From assembly GCA_947561715.1 (NCBI GenBank), contig OX387200.1, positions 21,392,501-21,456,500 of the forward strand: a DNA stretch of 64,000 bases, read 5' to 3'. The first letter of the stretch is position 1. Each line of letters starts with the position of its first letter. The notes under the pieces were generated by a model, which was not told the origin of the DNA, ran no database searches, and worked only from the letters and a program-made list of their open reading frames with translations. The translations under genes and the position numbers were made by a program. Below are positions 4,801 to 28,616 of the stretch, piece by piece. This DNA is from Ascidia mentula. Lineage: Eukaryota; Chordata; Ascidiacea; Phlebobranchia; Ascidiidae.

Positions 4801-7800
4801 TATTAATGTTTCTCCAAGATAAAGTTTAGTAAAAATTTTTGTTTAAAACTGTTTTACAACTTGCAAAATTTTTTTCCATAATTTTGGTAAAGTCAGCTGA
4901 TATTCAGTATTGTGAAGATATTTATGATTATTGCAAAGTTAATATAAGCACTGGTTTTGAACTTACATTCTTTCTTAACCCAACATAGCAAACCCCAGTG
5001 AGCACAAGAACAATAATAGCTGTCATGAAGTATGCGAAGGCACTACTTGTGGAGTCACTGCTGTCTGTGAATACATGAAACTCTCAGGTTTAAATACCTC
5101 GTGATAAATGGTAACAAACTTACATGCAAGAGCCCCAATCATTGCAAGTGAGGCAAATACTCCTCCCATACCCTGGTAACAAAAAAGTGTTGATAACACA
5201 GGAAAAGAAAAATATTCATAGGAAAGGAAAAGATAAGATTTGATACAAATTATAATAAGAATTAGTTGCAATAATGGATTTAAGACATCTTTTTAAATCA
5301 GCAAACATTGCACCACAACTACAACTAATAAACTGAAATATTGTATATATATTTCAATTGTACAAGGACTCTCTCTTGCAGGTTATTTTCAACTATGGAC
5401 CCCTAATCCAGTCGACCAAGCATGTTTCCATGGTTTTCTCGTGATTGTAATAAAAACTGATTCTTTAAGTTGAACAAGTTCCCTTACTATGATGTCAAAA
5501 AACAACATTATGGTGTAAAGTTGCTACTCTACGAACAAAACCCTAATTGCACCATTATTTGCAAAGTTATATGGCCTGCTTCAAATCCAGCTATGTATGT
5601 GAATATGGTTCATAGCACTAAATGCTTTTGGCACCCCTCATAGAGTGTTACATAGGATGTGTATAACTTTTACCTGGCCAGCCATGACAGCTGCAGTGTA
5701 ACGTGGGGGTAACAAAGCAGAGATTCCAAAAATACTTGATTGGAAGATAGCAGAACAACAGTTGAGAATAATAACACAGATCATCGTTAAAGTGAAAAAC
5801 AATTCCTGCCAGGTGCTGGTGTCAATCTGGAAACAATTTCCATGATATATTGTGGGAGGCAAAAGTTTTTTCGCGCTAAACAAAGTCTTCAAATTTCATT
5901 GTTGGCTTTTTACTAAAAACTGTTACAAAGTTAATAAAAATTACCTTGACAAAGACTTCAGTTATGACAAACATGAGGACCATTATGACAATTGATCCAA
6001 GTATCCTCACTTTTTCTTTTATCCTAAAATGCAAAAAAATAACAACATTATATATTTCCACAACCATGTTATTTGACATAAAAAAGCACATTTACCTTTG
6101 CTGCAGGACGGTGTTTATAAACTGGAAGATGACATTTGGAAGCATTGCACAAATAGAGAGGGTGCTTTGGAACAAGGTTTGTAGATTGTTGAATTCTGGT
6201 GAGCTGGGACCAACAGTTGAAGCGTTTACAGTTGCATTTACAGTTTCAATTGTGTTGTTAGAGGTAGAGCTGTTGCTTTGTAACTTAGTCATCCAGTACT
6301 GAAAAAAAACACTCCCGGATAAAAGTTATGTTGTACGCATGCTTATAAAACCACTTACATCGTTCGCTGTAATAAAAAAGTTCCATGGCAAAAGCGTTCC
6401 CAACCCAAGAAAGTAAAACGAAAGATATACAACCTGAAACCTGTTGAATGAATGAAAACGAAAGTCATGTTTTATGGTGCAATTTGCTTCATAATAAAGA
6501 TAATCCACAATGTGGAAATCTGTGTGCCTTCTAGTCTACCAGCTAGCATATGTGCCACGGTCACCAGCTTCACTGATGAGACCTTACAAGTCGAAATAGT
6601 GTGTGCACTTGTCTGCAGCTCTCATTGACTATTATGGCTCTTTTGCGCATATAAAAGATAATCTACTGTTTTAAGGTTACAAAGCTGATGCCATTATACA
6701 TGTGCCCTTATCTTGAAGATGTTGTTAATTAAAGAAAGTCTTCACCAGATGCATACAGTTATGTGTAACCCATAAAAATGTACTTCAGAAAATTCAAAAT
6801 GTTTGAAATAGACGAACAATTACATGCCACATATATGTAAGTTTCAAACAATATGATGTAACAAATATTGTCAAACAATATAATTATAATGCTTACTTGT
6901 CTTTTGGCCCCATGACAGCTTGCTCACTTTCAGATGTTTCCTTGCGTATTTCTTTGTACAGAGCAGCACCAGAATAATCAGCACCCAGTAGAGGTGAATT
7001 CTCCCCTACATCTAATAATACAAAAGAATAAACTAAACCAAATGAACAAAGCATGTATACTGCTATTTTTGTTGCCAGGCATACTAATTAATCGGAATTG
7101 CTCTTCTGGCACTTAGTTTCTAAAGTGTTTATTTGAAACCAACGTTTCTTTTGCCATTCGGCGAGACTTCCTCAGGGTTATGTCAACAATAATGTATCAA
7201 ACGCATAAACAGCACGTGTTTGGTTTACACTGTGAGCATGACAGCAAGAACTATATAGCAAAGCTTTCAGCATAGTAAACATGACGTACATTTACCAACT
7301 GTTACAGATAAATAATATTTAGAGTTTTCCTAATTAAAGGTTATGAATATTTCAATTTCTTTCATGCAGCTTCATTGATTGAAAGAACATTGAACTGTTT
7401 GCAGCATGAACAAAACAGTTCAAGCACCTTGGCCATAATTGGAAAGGACTTTGCCAACACATACATCTATTTATAAATTTTGGTTGTTGGTCAAGTTATC
7501 CAGCTAATATTGCTTCCTATATGCCCTGCATTTCACAAGCTTGTGGGTTTTGTAGAAAGTAAATCATTTTCAGAAATTAATTTCCACAGATTTGATTAGG
7601 ACTTGCTGCCTTAGGTTTTGGGTATAAATTGGAAAAAGTGTTAATTCTCTCTGTTACTAAGCTCAAAAACATATCTATTTGTTCTGTCTAAATGCTACCC
7701 AATCATCAGAGGTGAACTGTCCTAAACACTACATAGTAATTTATATGGATATATAAAACCTTGAAGCATCTCGAAGCCATTGCACATTAACCATAATTCA

Positions 7801-12200: not shown

Positions 12201-13582
12201 CTCAGGATTACGATACACATTGTTGGCAACAGAACATATATGAAAGAAAAGTTTGTATATACCATATTTACTAAACCCTGTACAACTTTATCAAAACAAT
12301 ATTTTGTACAAAATTAAATTTGAGGAAACATGTTTAACCTACCTTGGTGGGGTCACACATAAAGTGGAAGGTGAATGGAATCATTGTTCCGACATAATCG
12401 AATCCATGATGGTGGGGAAGATGGTTGCCATCATTTACAACAAATTGGTTGATTCCTGTTTATAAATAAAATTCGAATTTGTGTCCAGTAAACTTTGGAA
12501 GCGTTGCTTTACATTGATATGAATTTAAAATTAAATTGAATTTATTCAACAAAAAATGTTAAACTGAATGTAACCGGGGGACGAAATGAAAAGTTTACAA
12601 ATCAGGGAATACACAGCTTACAAGAACCAAATTACTCCATAGCACAGTGCCACTCAACAGCTGCACTGATGAGACCTTACAGGTCGAAACAGTGCGTGTA
12701 CACACCCTGTCTGCAGCTTTGCAAATTACTCCATGTTTTATGATCTAAATAAAATATACCACTTAAACAAAATAAGGGTCACAAACCTAAATGCCATTTT
12801 CCCACCATTCCTGTGTGATATCCTTGTTTTTTCAAAGCCTCAGCGATTGTGGTTTCATTTTTTGGTAATCCACCAGAGTCAATTTGCCAAACCACCCTGT
12901 TCTGACCAACCATCCCACTCCTGATTGGAAGTCTTCCTGTTTAGAATATAAATTTATAGAAATAGAATAATTTCACAAAAAGCCAACAAAAATAAGCATG
13001 TCTGTTGATAGAAAAATAGTTTTGCTACCTCATCAAGCCATAGGTTTTCAGCTATATTTAACCAAAAAATATTAAACTTGTGCTCAATGCTACACTCAAC
13101 AAAACACATTACAAGTATAGTCCTATATTTACACGATAATCTAAAATCAGTGTGACAGCCAGATACCCTGGGGTTATGTGGTTCATTATGTTACAAAGTC
13201 TGGTTTGTAACTTTATGTACATATATTACATAAACAATCGATTTTTAACTAGGAATTGGTGAATAGTTGTATGCCATTGAATAAACTACATACCTGTTAA
13301 CAATGCAGCTCTGCTTGGTGTGCACATGGAGTCTGCTGCATACCATTGTGTAAATCTCATCCCCTCATCAGCCAACAGATCAATCGGTCCCTTCTCCTGA
13401 GTCGGATGTCCATAAGAATGCAAATCTCCATAACCAAGGTCGTCAGCAAATATTACTATAAAGTTTGGTTTTCTTGACTGAACAACAGCCAACAGGGCCA
13501 GCAGCAGTACCGGTAAAATATTAATTGTCTGAACATGCATTTGGAAAACCTTTCGAAAGCAAACTTTGTTATTGAAACTCAA
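9263..13582 (-). CDS. ARSA: Arylsulfatase A-like sulfatase
   Basis: Eight minus-strand exons (13582-13294, 12936-12787, 12455-12343, 12002-11783, 11441-11277, 10776-10639, 9951-9797, 9628-9263) sum to 1596 nt, giving 531 residues. A start at the second Met ([20 protein letters not shown]) would put a signal peptide at the very N-terminus and may be the true one. Type I sulfatases hydrolyse sulfate esters in lysosomes or outside the cell. Visible are FADDLGYGD (metal-binding Asp pair), [12 protein letters not shown] with the Cys converted to formylglycine (Cys87 from the first Met), GKWHLG, LSDHGPQ and WEGGIRVP. The C-terminal [15 protein letters not shown] and a Cys-rich [10 protein letters not shown] tail resemble ARSA/ARSG. 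The transmembrane hairpin of steryl-sulfatase is absent, so the protein should be soluble. The natural substrate cannot be told from sequence. Confidence 0.94.
11008..11085. repeat. Short GC-rich imperfect tandem repeat in a sulfatase intron
   Basis: The unit CACCGCACTGAGTGCACC is followed closely by CACCGCACCGACTGCACC inside a sulfatase intron. It may be part of a short interspersed element; no ends were found. Confidence 0.35.
12659..12718 (+). ncRNA. Type I hammerhead ribozyme, apparently intact
   Basis: All conserved parts occur in order. Helix I 5' strand AGCTGCA (12659-12665) is followed by core CTGATGA (12666-12672), helix II GACC-TTACA-GGTC (12673-12685), core GAAA (12686-12689), helix III starting CAG and closing CTGT, cleavage-site GTC ending at 12711, and the helix I 3' strand TGCAGCT (12712-12718). 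The last is a perfect 7-bp complement of the first strand. Helix II has four perfect pairs, with the expected G-C pair next to the core. Predicted self-cleavage is 3' of C12711. It lies in a sulfatase intron on the strand opposite the gene. Hammerheads of this layout are known from retrozymes and Penelope-like elements; the carrier here is not identified. Confidence 0.88.
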
Positions 13583-26508: not shown

Positions 26509-28616
26509 ATGTCTGGAACTTCAAATCCGTCCGCTTTGGCCCAGCAAGAAACCACGGGTCATGACGTCACCTCATCCGAGGGGGTTTCCCCTGTAGCACC
26601 CTACAACGACCTCTACTGGATTTTTTCGGAGATTGTTATTTGTTTCGTCACAATCTTTGCCATCTACCTTCTCGTGTGTCTGGCTCGCTACGCCACCATC
26701 ACTCACTGCAAGCCCGGAAGAGAACTCAGCGGGAAGAAGGGAAAAATCCTCTACAGAATGTGCCTCATCAGCGTTGCCATGGCAGTGTGTCGCTTCGTCG
26801 TAGATCAAGCGGTTGCTGTGACAGGGTGGCAACGTGACGAAAACTGTGTGATTTCTGTGGCAGTCAGCACTGTGTTCTACTCCCTCAGCCTTTACCCGGT
26901 TTACATCTTCCTCTGGCTCCGTCAAAGTATCTTCTACGCCAACCCTGTTCTTTCCCACGTGCTCAACCCCGTGGTGACCTTCTTCAGTTGGGCGACCTTG
27001 TTCGTCATGCTTACCGGAGGCGCTGTCCTGACAACCATCTACGTCATCCCGGAGTTGACCGGGTGGCATTATAAAGCATCAGAAGACGGATGCAGGGACA
27101 TTGCAACGGAGCAGGGATTTGATCTTGTCCCCACACTTGTTGTGGTTTTCACCGTTTCTTTCCAGCTGAGTCTCCTGGCTCTGTTCGTTTACCCGCTTCT
27201 GACCAAGAAGACGCAACGTTACCGATCGGCGGATGACACGGCAGCATCCACCAATGAGAGAGAACAGGAGGTGGAATCCTACAACAACTGCCCTTCACCG
27301 AATGATGGAGAGAGCAGAGATGAGACTGGAGTGAAGAAGAAAACCACGACCAGTTTTCACTTTGTTTCGGAAAAGTCCAAGAAGAAGTTTTTCAAATCCC
27401 CGTGTGTGTTCTACAAGAAGAAGGATGTTGGCATCAACACCATTAAAGTGAAGAACGACACCAACAAACAAAGCAGATTCTCGAAGTCCAGTGCGACGGA
27501 TGGAGTGAGAAGGACCTCCAGTAGCTCTTGCGAATCCAAGAGATCCAAAAGGTAAGATTATGAAACAATTCCAGAATAAAATTACCACCCATGGTGCGAA
27601 TTAAGGGCTTTGCATCGATTAGTTTTGTTTTCTTTAATATGCAGCAGAATTTTATATTATTTGAATAATTTATTTTTATAACATTTACAACTAATATAAA
27701 CATAAGGAAAGGTGATAACGCAAGACAGCACTAAAGAAAAACAGTATTTGCAACACGGATCCACTAACCCACGACCTTTGTTCTTACAGAGCCCGAACCC
27801 AACAAGGTCGCCGAGTGATCCAGTTTATCCGTAAAGCTTTTCTCCTGACTCTAACCTGTGTATTATCCGACGTTATCTTTACCGTGGTGCAGATGATGAT
27901 CATTGTTCCGGAGCTTGTGTATCTCGCCATCTTCGACATCAACCTCCTTCTCAATATAATCTGCATCATCATGTCCTTCCGCGACTGGCCCAACATGATC
28001 ATGCCGTTTTGCGCCAAGTAAGCTGAGTTTGTTTGTTTTAATAAATTTCTTCCCCACAATACCCTTCACCAATAAGAGAAACAGACGATTGGATTAATGA
28101 CAAATGTGTATTTCACGTTGTAGCGAACACAACAGATTTTTGTTTTAAAACACTAAACTTAGATATGTTTAATTTGGACTCCTTGACATTGCATTTGTTT
28201 CCGAAAGCATGCATAGCTTCTGTGTGCAATGACCTTTCCTTCTAATATCAACACTAATATGTATTATAAACAATAAAGCCAATAATGGAAGTATTCGTCT
28301 TGCCATTTGGTGGGCAAGATCGTCGCATAGTCACCAAAGCTGCACTGATGAGATAGGCAGAAACAGTGGCCATGTATGTGCTTAACACTAATGTGTACGT
28401 TTGCTTGACAGGAAACTCGCTAAAAGGAGAAGCGCACAGAACGCTTCGGTGTCCGGAAACGGCGGCCGAAGCAACACGACCCGCTTAATCCTCACTATGG
28501 CCCAGTCTAGGAGGGATGCACAGCAACGTGTAGCTAACCACCACTCATCCAGCTCGCCTGTAGAGGATGACAGCAGCGTTGTCGCCAAAGAACCACTGGC
28601 AGAAACCCGTACATGA
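26509..28616 (+). CDS. Orphan seven-transmembrane protein
   Basis: Three exons (26509-27551, 27790-28017, 28412-28616) give 491 residues. Seven hydrophobic helices can be placed. They are roughly residues 35-63 (FSEIVICFVTIFAIYLLVCL), 83-105, 120-148 (ending YIFLWLRQSIFYANP), 155-185 and 200-228, followed by a long polar loop of about 125 residues rich in Ser, Lys and Arg. The last two helices come from exon 2 (FLLTLTCVLSDVIFTVVQMM and LAIFDINLLLNIICIIMSF). The polar C-terminal tail is Ser/Arg-rich. Topology is receptor-like, with the long loop in the position of intracellular loop 3. I see no E/DRY after helix 3 and no NPxxY in helix 7, so it is not a typical rhodopsin-class receptor. No ligand or family name can be supported. 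Confidence 0.85.
28338..28380 (+). ncRNA. Hammerhead ribozyme fragment (5' half)
   Basis: AGCTGCA-CTGATGA (28338-28351) is identical to the first 14 bases of the intact copy at 12659. GAAACAG follows at 28360-28366, but the helix II hairpin is replaced by a short unpaired AGATAGGCA-type stretch and the 3' GTC-TGCAGCT part is missing. The upstream TAGTCACCAAAGCTGCA resembles the flank of the copy at 6566. It lies in intron 2 of the 7TM gene, on the sense strand. Confidence 0.5.

Follow-up and report, generated by a model that had tools for sequence, protein, structure and literature searches.

An intron of an arylsulfatase gene of Ascidia mentula carries a hammerhead motif that we read as part of a 5'-truncated copy of a non-autonomous animal retrozyme with a 291-nt unit, spread by the cycle of Penelope-like elements (PLEs) set out below; we put the probability of this reading at about 80%. 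The motif lies in a stretch of 64,000 nucleotides of contig OX387200.1, referred to here as the window. It belongs to a repeat family with defined units, whose inserts show target-site duplications, two classes of 3' ends and head-to-head geometry, and the PLEs resident in the same genome show the same geometry.

Integration scars of this kind offer a way to test, from sequence, what drives the mobility of animal retrozymes. Cervera and de la Peña (2020; PMC7229834) consider PLEs a strong candidate to mobilise retrozymes, a 2024 review (PMC11722881) names LINEs or PLEs as their machinery, and a 2020 review (PMC7761336) notes the lack of any conserved motif that would identify an autonomous partner. 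In the titles and abstract openings of a mostly open-access literature we found no demonstration of PLEs mobilising retrozymes. The scar anatomy described here supports the published idea. What is new is the build of the copies: to the metazoan retrozymes as portrayed in PMC7229834, in whose main text the term 'inverted' is absent, the Ascidia family adds head-to-head inserts with two defined 3'-end classes that match the PLE signature. It also places a large retrozyme family in a tunicate for which a public poly(A) RNA-seq run exists (ERR10378036); from the tunicate Didemnum vexillum, nine type I hammerhead loci have been reported (PMC8704543).

Read directly from the sequence, the hammerhead has a complete core (CTGATGA, GAAA and GUC) in the right order and three helices of 7, 4 and 4 bp, open at helix I, as expected of type I (Table 1). 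A preliminary description of this DNA had listed the same coordinates and elements and had named the type I topology with a complete core, all of which is borne out, and its predicted cleavage point after position 12711 is supported as far as the letters can tell. The Rfam check that it proposed yielded nothing at the curated cut-off: with gathering thresholds there was no match across the 64-kb window. A permissive search of the surrounding 2.2 kb with 4,227 families placed its two lowest E-values both at the hammerhead site, namely Hammerhead_3 with 24.9 bits (gathering threshold 48.5; E 0.021 over all families) and RAGATH-1-hammerhead with 28.3 bits (E 0.048). The latter (Rfam RF03152), the top permissive covariance-model match, shares with the Ascidia hammerhead a long helix III and an upstream hairpin, but its cut-off of 56.3 bits lies well above the score obtained. 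This shortfall against the Rfam hammerhead models also sets the Ascidia ribozyme apart from the retrozymes treated in PMC7229834.

Table 1. Positions of the hammerhead, the retrozyme copies and the host intron in the window
Feature	Position	Strand	Remarks
Type I hammerhead ribozyme, core and helices I-III	12659..12718	+	sequence; sub-cut-off permissive Rfam matches; 1,852 genomic core copies
Helix I	12659-12665 with 12712-12718	+	7 bp
CTGATGA core segment	12666-12672	+	
Helix II	12673-12676 with 12682-12685	+	4 bp
GAAA core segment	12686-12689	+	
Helix III	12689-12692 with 12707-12710	+	4 bp
C17	12711	+	predicted cleavage 3' of this position
Truncated retrozyme insert	12641..12721	+	81 nt; short-tail 3' end; ends set by duplication
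Left target-site duplication CAAATTACTCCAT	12628..12640		perfect 13-bp direct repeat
Right target-site duplication CAAATTACTCCAT	12722..12734		perfect 13-bp direct repeat
Arylsulfatase host intron	12456..12786	-	331 bp; GT..AG; splice sites and flanking exon frames by eye
Second, older retrozyme copy	6506..6653	+	78% to unit A; long-tail end
Left target-site duplication AAAGATAATC of second copy	6496..6505		10 bp
Right target-site duplication AAAGATAATC of second copy	6654..6663		10 bp
Third, decayed copy related to unit B	28286..28381	+	75%; helix II eroded (by eye)

Three further lines of evidence for the hammerhead were set aside. For the isolated insert RNA, the forced hammerhead fold, in which all three helices pair, reaches -20.5 kcal/mol, no better than the minimum free energy structure (-20.8) and an alternative fold (-20.4), and the fold energy has a z-score of +0.19 against 200 shuffles. 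Covariation across 52 copies is not significant, with 93.8% of cells paired and a shuffled mean of 93.8%. That alignment (54 rows minus L073 and one of L086, with L001 replaced by the identical window stretch) was assembled with a pattern demanding CTGATGA and CGAAA, so the invariance of these segments holds by construction. Genome scans with the Rfam Hammerhead_1 model returned no match, but likewise none in its 14 controls, and were not used; those with RAGATH-1 and Hammerhead_3 returned sub-cut-off matches only, in 8 of 14 and 7 of 14 control genomes as well (E up to 10), and served to fetch diverged copies.

The same alignment contains a second pairing. Positions 12664-12668 of the window can pair with 12690-12694 (CACTG/CAGTG; columns 8-12 with 35-40 of alignment A1), which would abolish the catalytic core. 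This pairing is kept in 94.2% of cells across the 52 copies, in all of which T12693, outside helix III, is invariant; its covariation there does not exceed that of shuffles. It is possible that the pairing acts as an off-switch keeping circles closed, or it may be a mere by-product.

What supports the hammerhead is the number of complete copies and the conservation between families. The core pattern CTGATGAGNCCNNNNNGGNCGAAAC occurs 1,852 times (923 + 929 exact matches) in the genome, whereas its reversed control occurs nowhere on either strand (0 + 0), which rules out chance. The preliminary description had thus rightly judged chance agreement unlikely, and the outcome that it held would refute it, a lack of other genomic copies, clearly fails to apply. 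A core pattern searched in viral contigs (CTGATGAGACCTTACAGGTCGAAACAGTG) gave no match. Family A counts 341 exact copies; in one array on contig C70 (L054), eight reverse and five forward hammerhead units stand head-to-head at a spacing of 291 bp (one of 293). The unit of family B is a 285-bp tandem repeat (L046). When the two units are aligned as whole circles, 48 of 55 positions agree in the hammerhead stretch and 107 of 214 elsewhere (Fisher p 2.3e-7); the hammerhead is thus the best-kept stretch, as would be expected under constraint, with the reservation that it also served to find both families. Four near-identical diverged copies with similar flanks lie at about 2.66-2.74 Mb of contig C1 (L031, L032, L033 and L039, three of them compared by BLAST). 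Their core is complete in all four and their flanks bear kinase-like ORFs by eye, so that they seem to be an old insertion co-duplicated with its flanks.

Both families appear to fit the animal non-LTR retrozymes, which are described as type I hammerheads in tandem repeats of 150-450 bp with a GC content below 50%, duplications of more than 4 bp and a stable predicted circular fold (PMC7229834). In Ascidia, each unit of the 291-bp and 285-bp arrays has a type I hammerhead, unit A has a GC content of 0.478, there is no protein-coding region (the longest ORF in the examined array stretch has 88 aa), duplications exceed 4 bp, and the predicted circular folds of both units are more stable than those of shuffled sequences (z -2.85 and -2.65, 60 shuffles each). 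Plant LTR retrozymes (PMC4918200) are likewise hammerhead-bearing non-autonomous retroelements, but they differ in having type III hammerheads, LTRs and 4-bp duplications (PMC7229834); no LTR arrangement was noticed in the 291-bp array. An ORF with reverse transcriptase and GIY-YIG domains, as a PLE proper would have, is absent from the array with its 88-aa maximum, and the retrozyme is at most a passenger, not itself a Penelope-like element.

How the copies are built was analysed by mapping them to units A and B. After removal of array loci (L019-L030), repeats of one place and clusters at locus edges, 76 non-redundant insert clusters were kept, some of which remain segmental duplicates, such as L003/L004. 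Single-orientation clusters make up 48 of the 76 (22 forward, 26 reverse), while 25 are head-to-head with their 3' sides outward, as in PLEs, against a single tail-to-tail cluster; two are complex. Neighbouring pairs among the first 100 of the 1,852 cores gave 10 head-to-head and none tail-to-tail. Duplications of at least 9 bp flank 25 of the 76 clusters, compared with 0.6% of 1,507 mismatched flank pairs, and a wider search found duplications of at least 10 bp at 29 of 76 clusters and in 5 of 453 controls; half of the clusters (38 of 76) have none of at least 8 bp. The median duplication length is 13 bp, taken over 25 of the 29 rows (L004, L070, L071 and L054 excluded, as also for GC content).

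The two sides of the inserts behave differently. 3' ends fall within unit positions 1-59 in 53 of 57 cases for family A and 41 of 43 for family B; most copies were found via the hammerhead, and this selection in itself places 3' ends beyond it but does not confine them to the next 60 nt. The 52 recorded 5' ends, in contrast, spread over positions 36-261, with none at the cleavage site. Among 26 of the 29 duplication rows (without L004, L070 and L071), the tails past the cleavage site form a short class of 6-19 nt (17 ends) and a long class of 33-46 nt (21 ends), with nothing between. If L003/L004 is counted once, 14 head-to-head inserts are bounded by duplications, and 13 of them combine a short with a long tail: L002, L003, L006, L007, L008, L009, L013, L015, L042 and L054 in family A and L048, L062 and L069 in family B. 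The long end of L048 was read by eye, in an arm without the cleavage site, and the duplication of L054 is a TA run. The sole exception, L037, has one long end and another inside the ribozyme.

The count of 13 in 14 rests on boundaries set by the duplications, since these reclassified four rows. Raw BLAST ends of the 25 head-to-head clusters were mixed in 16, both long in four, both short in one (L046) and elsewhere in four; the four both-long rows (L003, L004, L006 and L008) turned mixed once the duplication set the boundary, having looked both-long owing to a chance resemblance of the flank to the unit. A count from coordinates only, over the first 100 of the 341 exact family-A copies, found 12 head-to-head clusters and no tail-to-tail one, with a long tail at exactly one outer end in 10, at both in none and at neither in two; one of the 12 (L009) also belongs to the duplication-bounded set. 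Six family-B inserts (L040, L044, L045, L048, L050 and L051), all fetched by the ribozyme-model scan, share a ribozyme-arm 5' end at unit position 240-243, just upstream of the core, and three of them (L044, L050 and L051) are nearly ribozyme-only copies of about 60 nt. Possibly reverse transcription stopped there at the folded ribozyme.

PLEs are known to leave such scars. In work on an Anolis PLE, Frangieh et al. (2024; PMC11167929) found both DNA strands to be cut and extended and reverse transcription to begin at two internal RNA sites next to each other; these sites equal the genomic tail of 30-40 bp, which they term unique to PLEs. Arkhipova et al. (2013; PMC3846280) describe head-to-head inverted copies in Adineta vaga with a 31-bp tail at one inverted repeat; some of the copies have duplications of 8-10 bp, and others have none. 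The Ascidia retrozyme thus resembles the PLEs of these two reports in its head-to-head inverted copies (Adineta), optional tail, short duplications and a hammerhead upstream of the start of reverse transcription; it differs in having no reverse-transcriptase ORF and a different, larger hammerhead.

ORFs matching RVT_1 and GIY-YIG lie near some retrozyme copies and are taken here as putative PLEs. In L078 the ORF scores under the curated Pfam cut-offs (GIY-YIG 22.2 of 22.6, RVT_1 14.7 of 29.6). It has 215 relatives; among the 120 of these that were listed, the best is a Ciona intestinalis protein (63%), and they carry RVT_1 and, in a few cases, also GIY-YIG. No solved structure was found at E 0.01. 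Relatives of the PLE reverse transcriptase within the genome fall into classes of about 95, 68, 52 and 39% identity to one query. Some of them lie in frames open over about 800 codons, without a stop in the matched part, and the genome thus seems to hold potentially active PLEs.

These PLEs show the geometry of the retrozymes. With the 3' UTR as query, and the best 40 of 615 (alpha) and 740 (beta) candidates scored, PLE alpha occupies 49 places with 18 head-to-head and no tail-to-tail pairs within 5 kb, and PLE beta 46 places with nine and none, some of the head-to-head pairs being segmental duplicates. A protein-level search of 118 PLE places found 12 head-to-head and no tail-to-tail neighbours within 6 kb. 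Six inserts out of 27 pairs were picked for compactness (five alpha, one beta), and in all six a short tail is combined with a long one. The difference in length, by eye, is about 30 nt in the alpha copies; it is larger in the beta copy. Their duplications measure 11-13 bp, five exact and one read by eye with a mismatch (L090). Duplications are AT-rich in both elements, with a GC content of 0.20 in the retrozymes (25) and 0.25 in the PLEs (6) against 0.375 in the window.

No particular PLE lineage is linked to the retrozyme by its tails, between which and those of the resident PLEs we found no convincing shared sequence. An end sequence that a PLE-beta tail and family B seemed to have in common did not hold up in five further PLE-beta ends. 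The idea that the retrozyme is the PLE's own terminal repeat was also rejected: the PLE 3' UTR bears a different hammerhead-like motif (by eye), and the retrozyme adjacent to it in L078 proved to be an insert of its own. The PLE loci L089-L094 gave no Rfam hammerhead match at E up to 1.

Target-primed reverse transcription in general is marked by a fixed 3' side, variable 5' ends and duplications of 10-15 bp. Retrozyme ends bear these general marks, and the genome contains a presumed LINE, recognised by an ORF with a zf-RVT match, so that LINE-type machinery might move the retrozyme like an ordinary SINE, head-to-head copies being twin-priming inversions. Inversion by twin priming, however, affects the 5' part, and the copy is left with a single 3' end; in head-to-head retrozymes both outer ends are 3' ends. 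The presumed LINE family has no inverted pair in 40 places (112 candidates), about half of which lie in one region of contig C70, in a control of this one family. The combination of one short and one long tail, moreover, is found in the resident PLEs and is described as unique to PLEs (PMC11167929). We consider a LINE-based origin improbable.

Far less probable still is that the repeats are DNA transposons of foldback or MITE type that carry the hammerhead in their inverted ends by chance. Inverted repeats do make up 25 of the 76 clusters, many with duplications, but the 48 single-orientation clusters, the scattered inner ends, the outer ends falling into two classes on one unit and the existence of tandem multimers of that unit all speak against it.

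The window copy fits mobilisation by a PLE as a single arm. It begins at about position 220 of unit A, crosses the cleavage site and ends at position 10, which is 10 nt beyond that site; over 220-291 it is 100% identical to the 291-nt unit. The preliminary description had called the ribozyme apparently intact, which holds for the catalytic core only; the copy as a whole lacks 210 nt of the unit and is thus unable to make a unit-length circle, and a loop-loop contact between helices I and II further out would be lost with its early end. The carrier, which that description had left undefined, is now the 291-nt unit, and its mention of retrozymes and Penelope-like elements as carriers of such hammerheads was apt. 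Its placement in a sulfatase intron and antisense to the host gene also stands, with Pfam Sulfatase (2e-13) and Sulfatase_C (8.7e-20) matched on other minus-strand ORFs of the gene. A complete core inside an intron could suggest an antisense ribozyme with a regulatory function for the sulfatase gene, but the copy is antisense, unit-identical and bounded by perfect duplications and so looks young and recent, which makes this highly improbable. The hammerhead of the second copy in the window, at about 6564-6622, is by eye mismatched in both helix I and helix II; for the third copy, a duplication was looked for at the flanks and not found.

From these observations we infer an active ribozyme, RNA circles and a PLE acting in trans. 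Multi-unit loci would be transcribed and the RNA cut by the hammerhead into monomers, which would be re-closed to circles, or part of the RNA would be left uncut. The reverse transcriptase and GIY-YIG endonuclease of a PLE would cut AT-rich DNA with a stagger of about 12 bp, and the cut strands would prime reverse transcription internally; in family A, priming would occur about 11 or about 36 nt beyond the cleavage site. The two strand ends would usually differ in the site that they use, one taking the short and one the long. Two cDNAs would then grow toward each other and be joined head-to-head; where a single arm is made, a single-orientation, 5'-truncated copy as in the window would result.

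The state of the template follows in part from the positions of the ends. Because the start sites lie some tens of nucleotides beyond the cleavage site, a monomer left linear by cleavage would yield cDNA of only 6-46 nt. None of the 52 5' ends lies at the cleavage site, and arms exceed one unit in seven rows (L002, L007, L015, L017, L052, L053 and L054), which indicates that the template ran across that site; it could equally be a circle or an uncut multimeric RNA, and arrays may also have grown by unequal crossing-over. In the Anolis work the main in vitro substrate was uncut RNA (PMC11167929). We lean, with some reserve, towards a wider view in which retrozymes are SINE-like passengers of PLEs, a complete insertion being a two-primer event with two start sites. 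If this is true, circularisation or escape from cleavage would be obligatory, because the linear monomer produced by cleavage would be of no use as a template, and the geometry would give a reason why retrozyme RNAs need to be circular.

The palindromic build has a practical side as well. In permissive Rfam searches, microRNA precursor models matched one retrozyme insert (L055, 1308-1431) and one PLE insert (L089, 285-413), with a MIR4221 match reaching E 4.2e-09 and 53.1 bits (cut-off 100); palindromic inserts of both elements may thus give rise to hairpin RNA or to spurious microRNA annotations.
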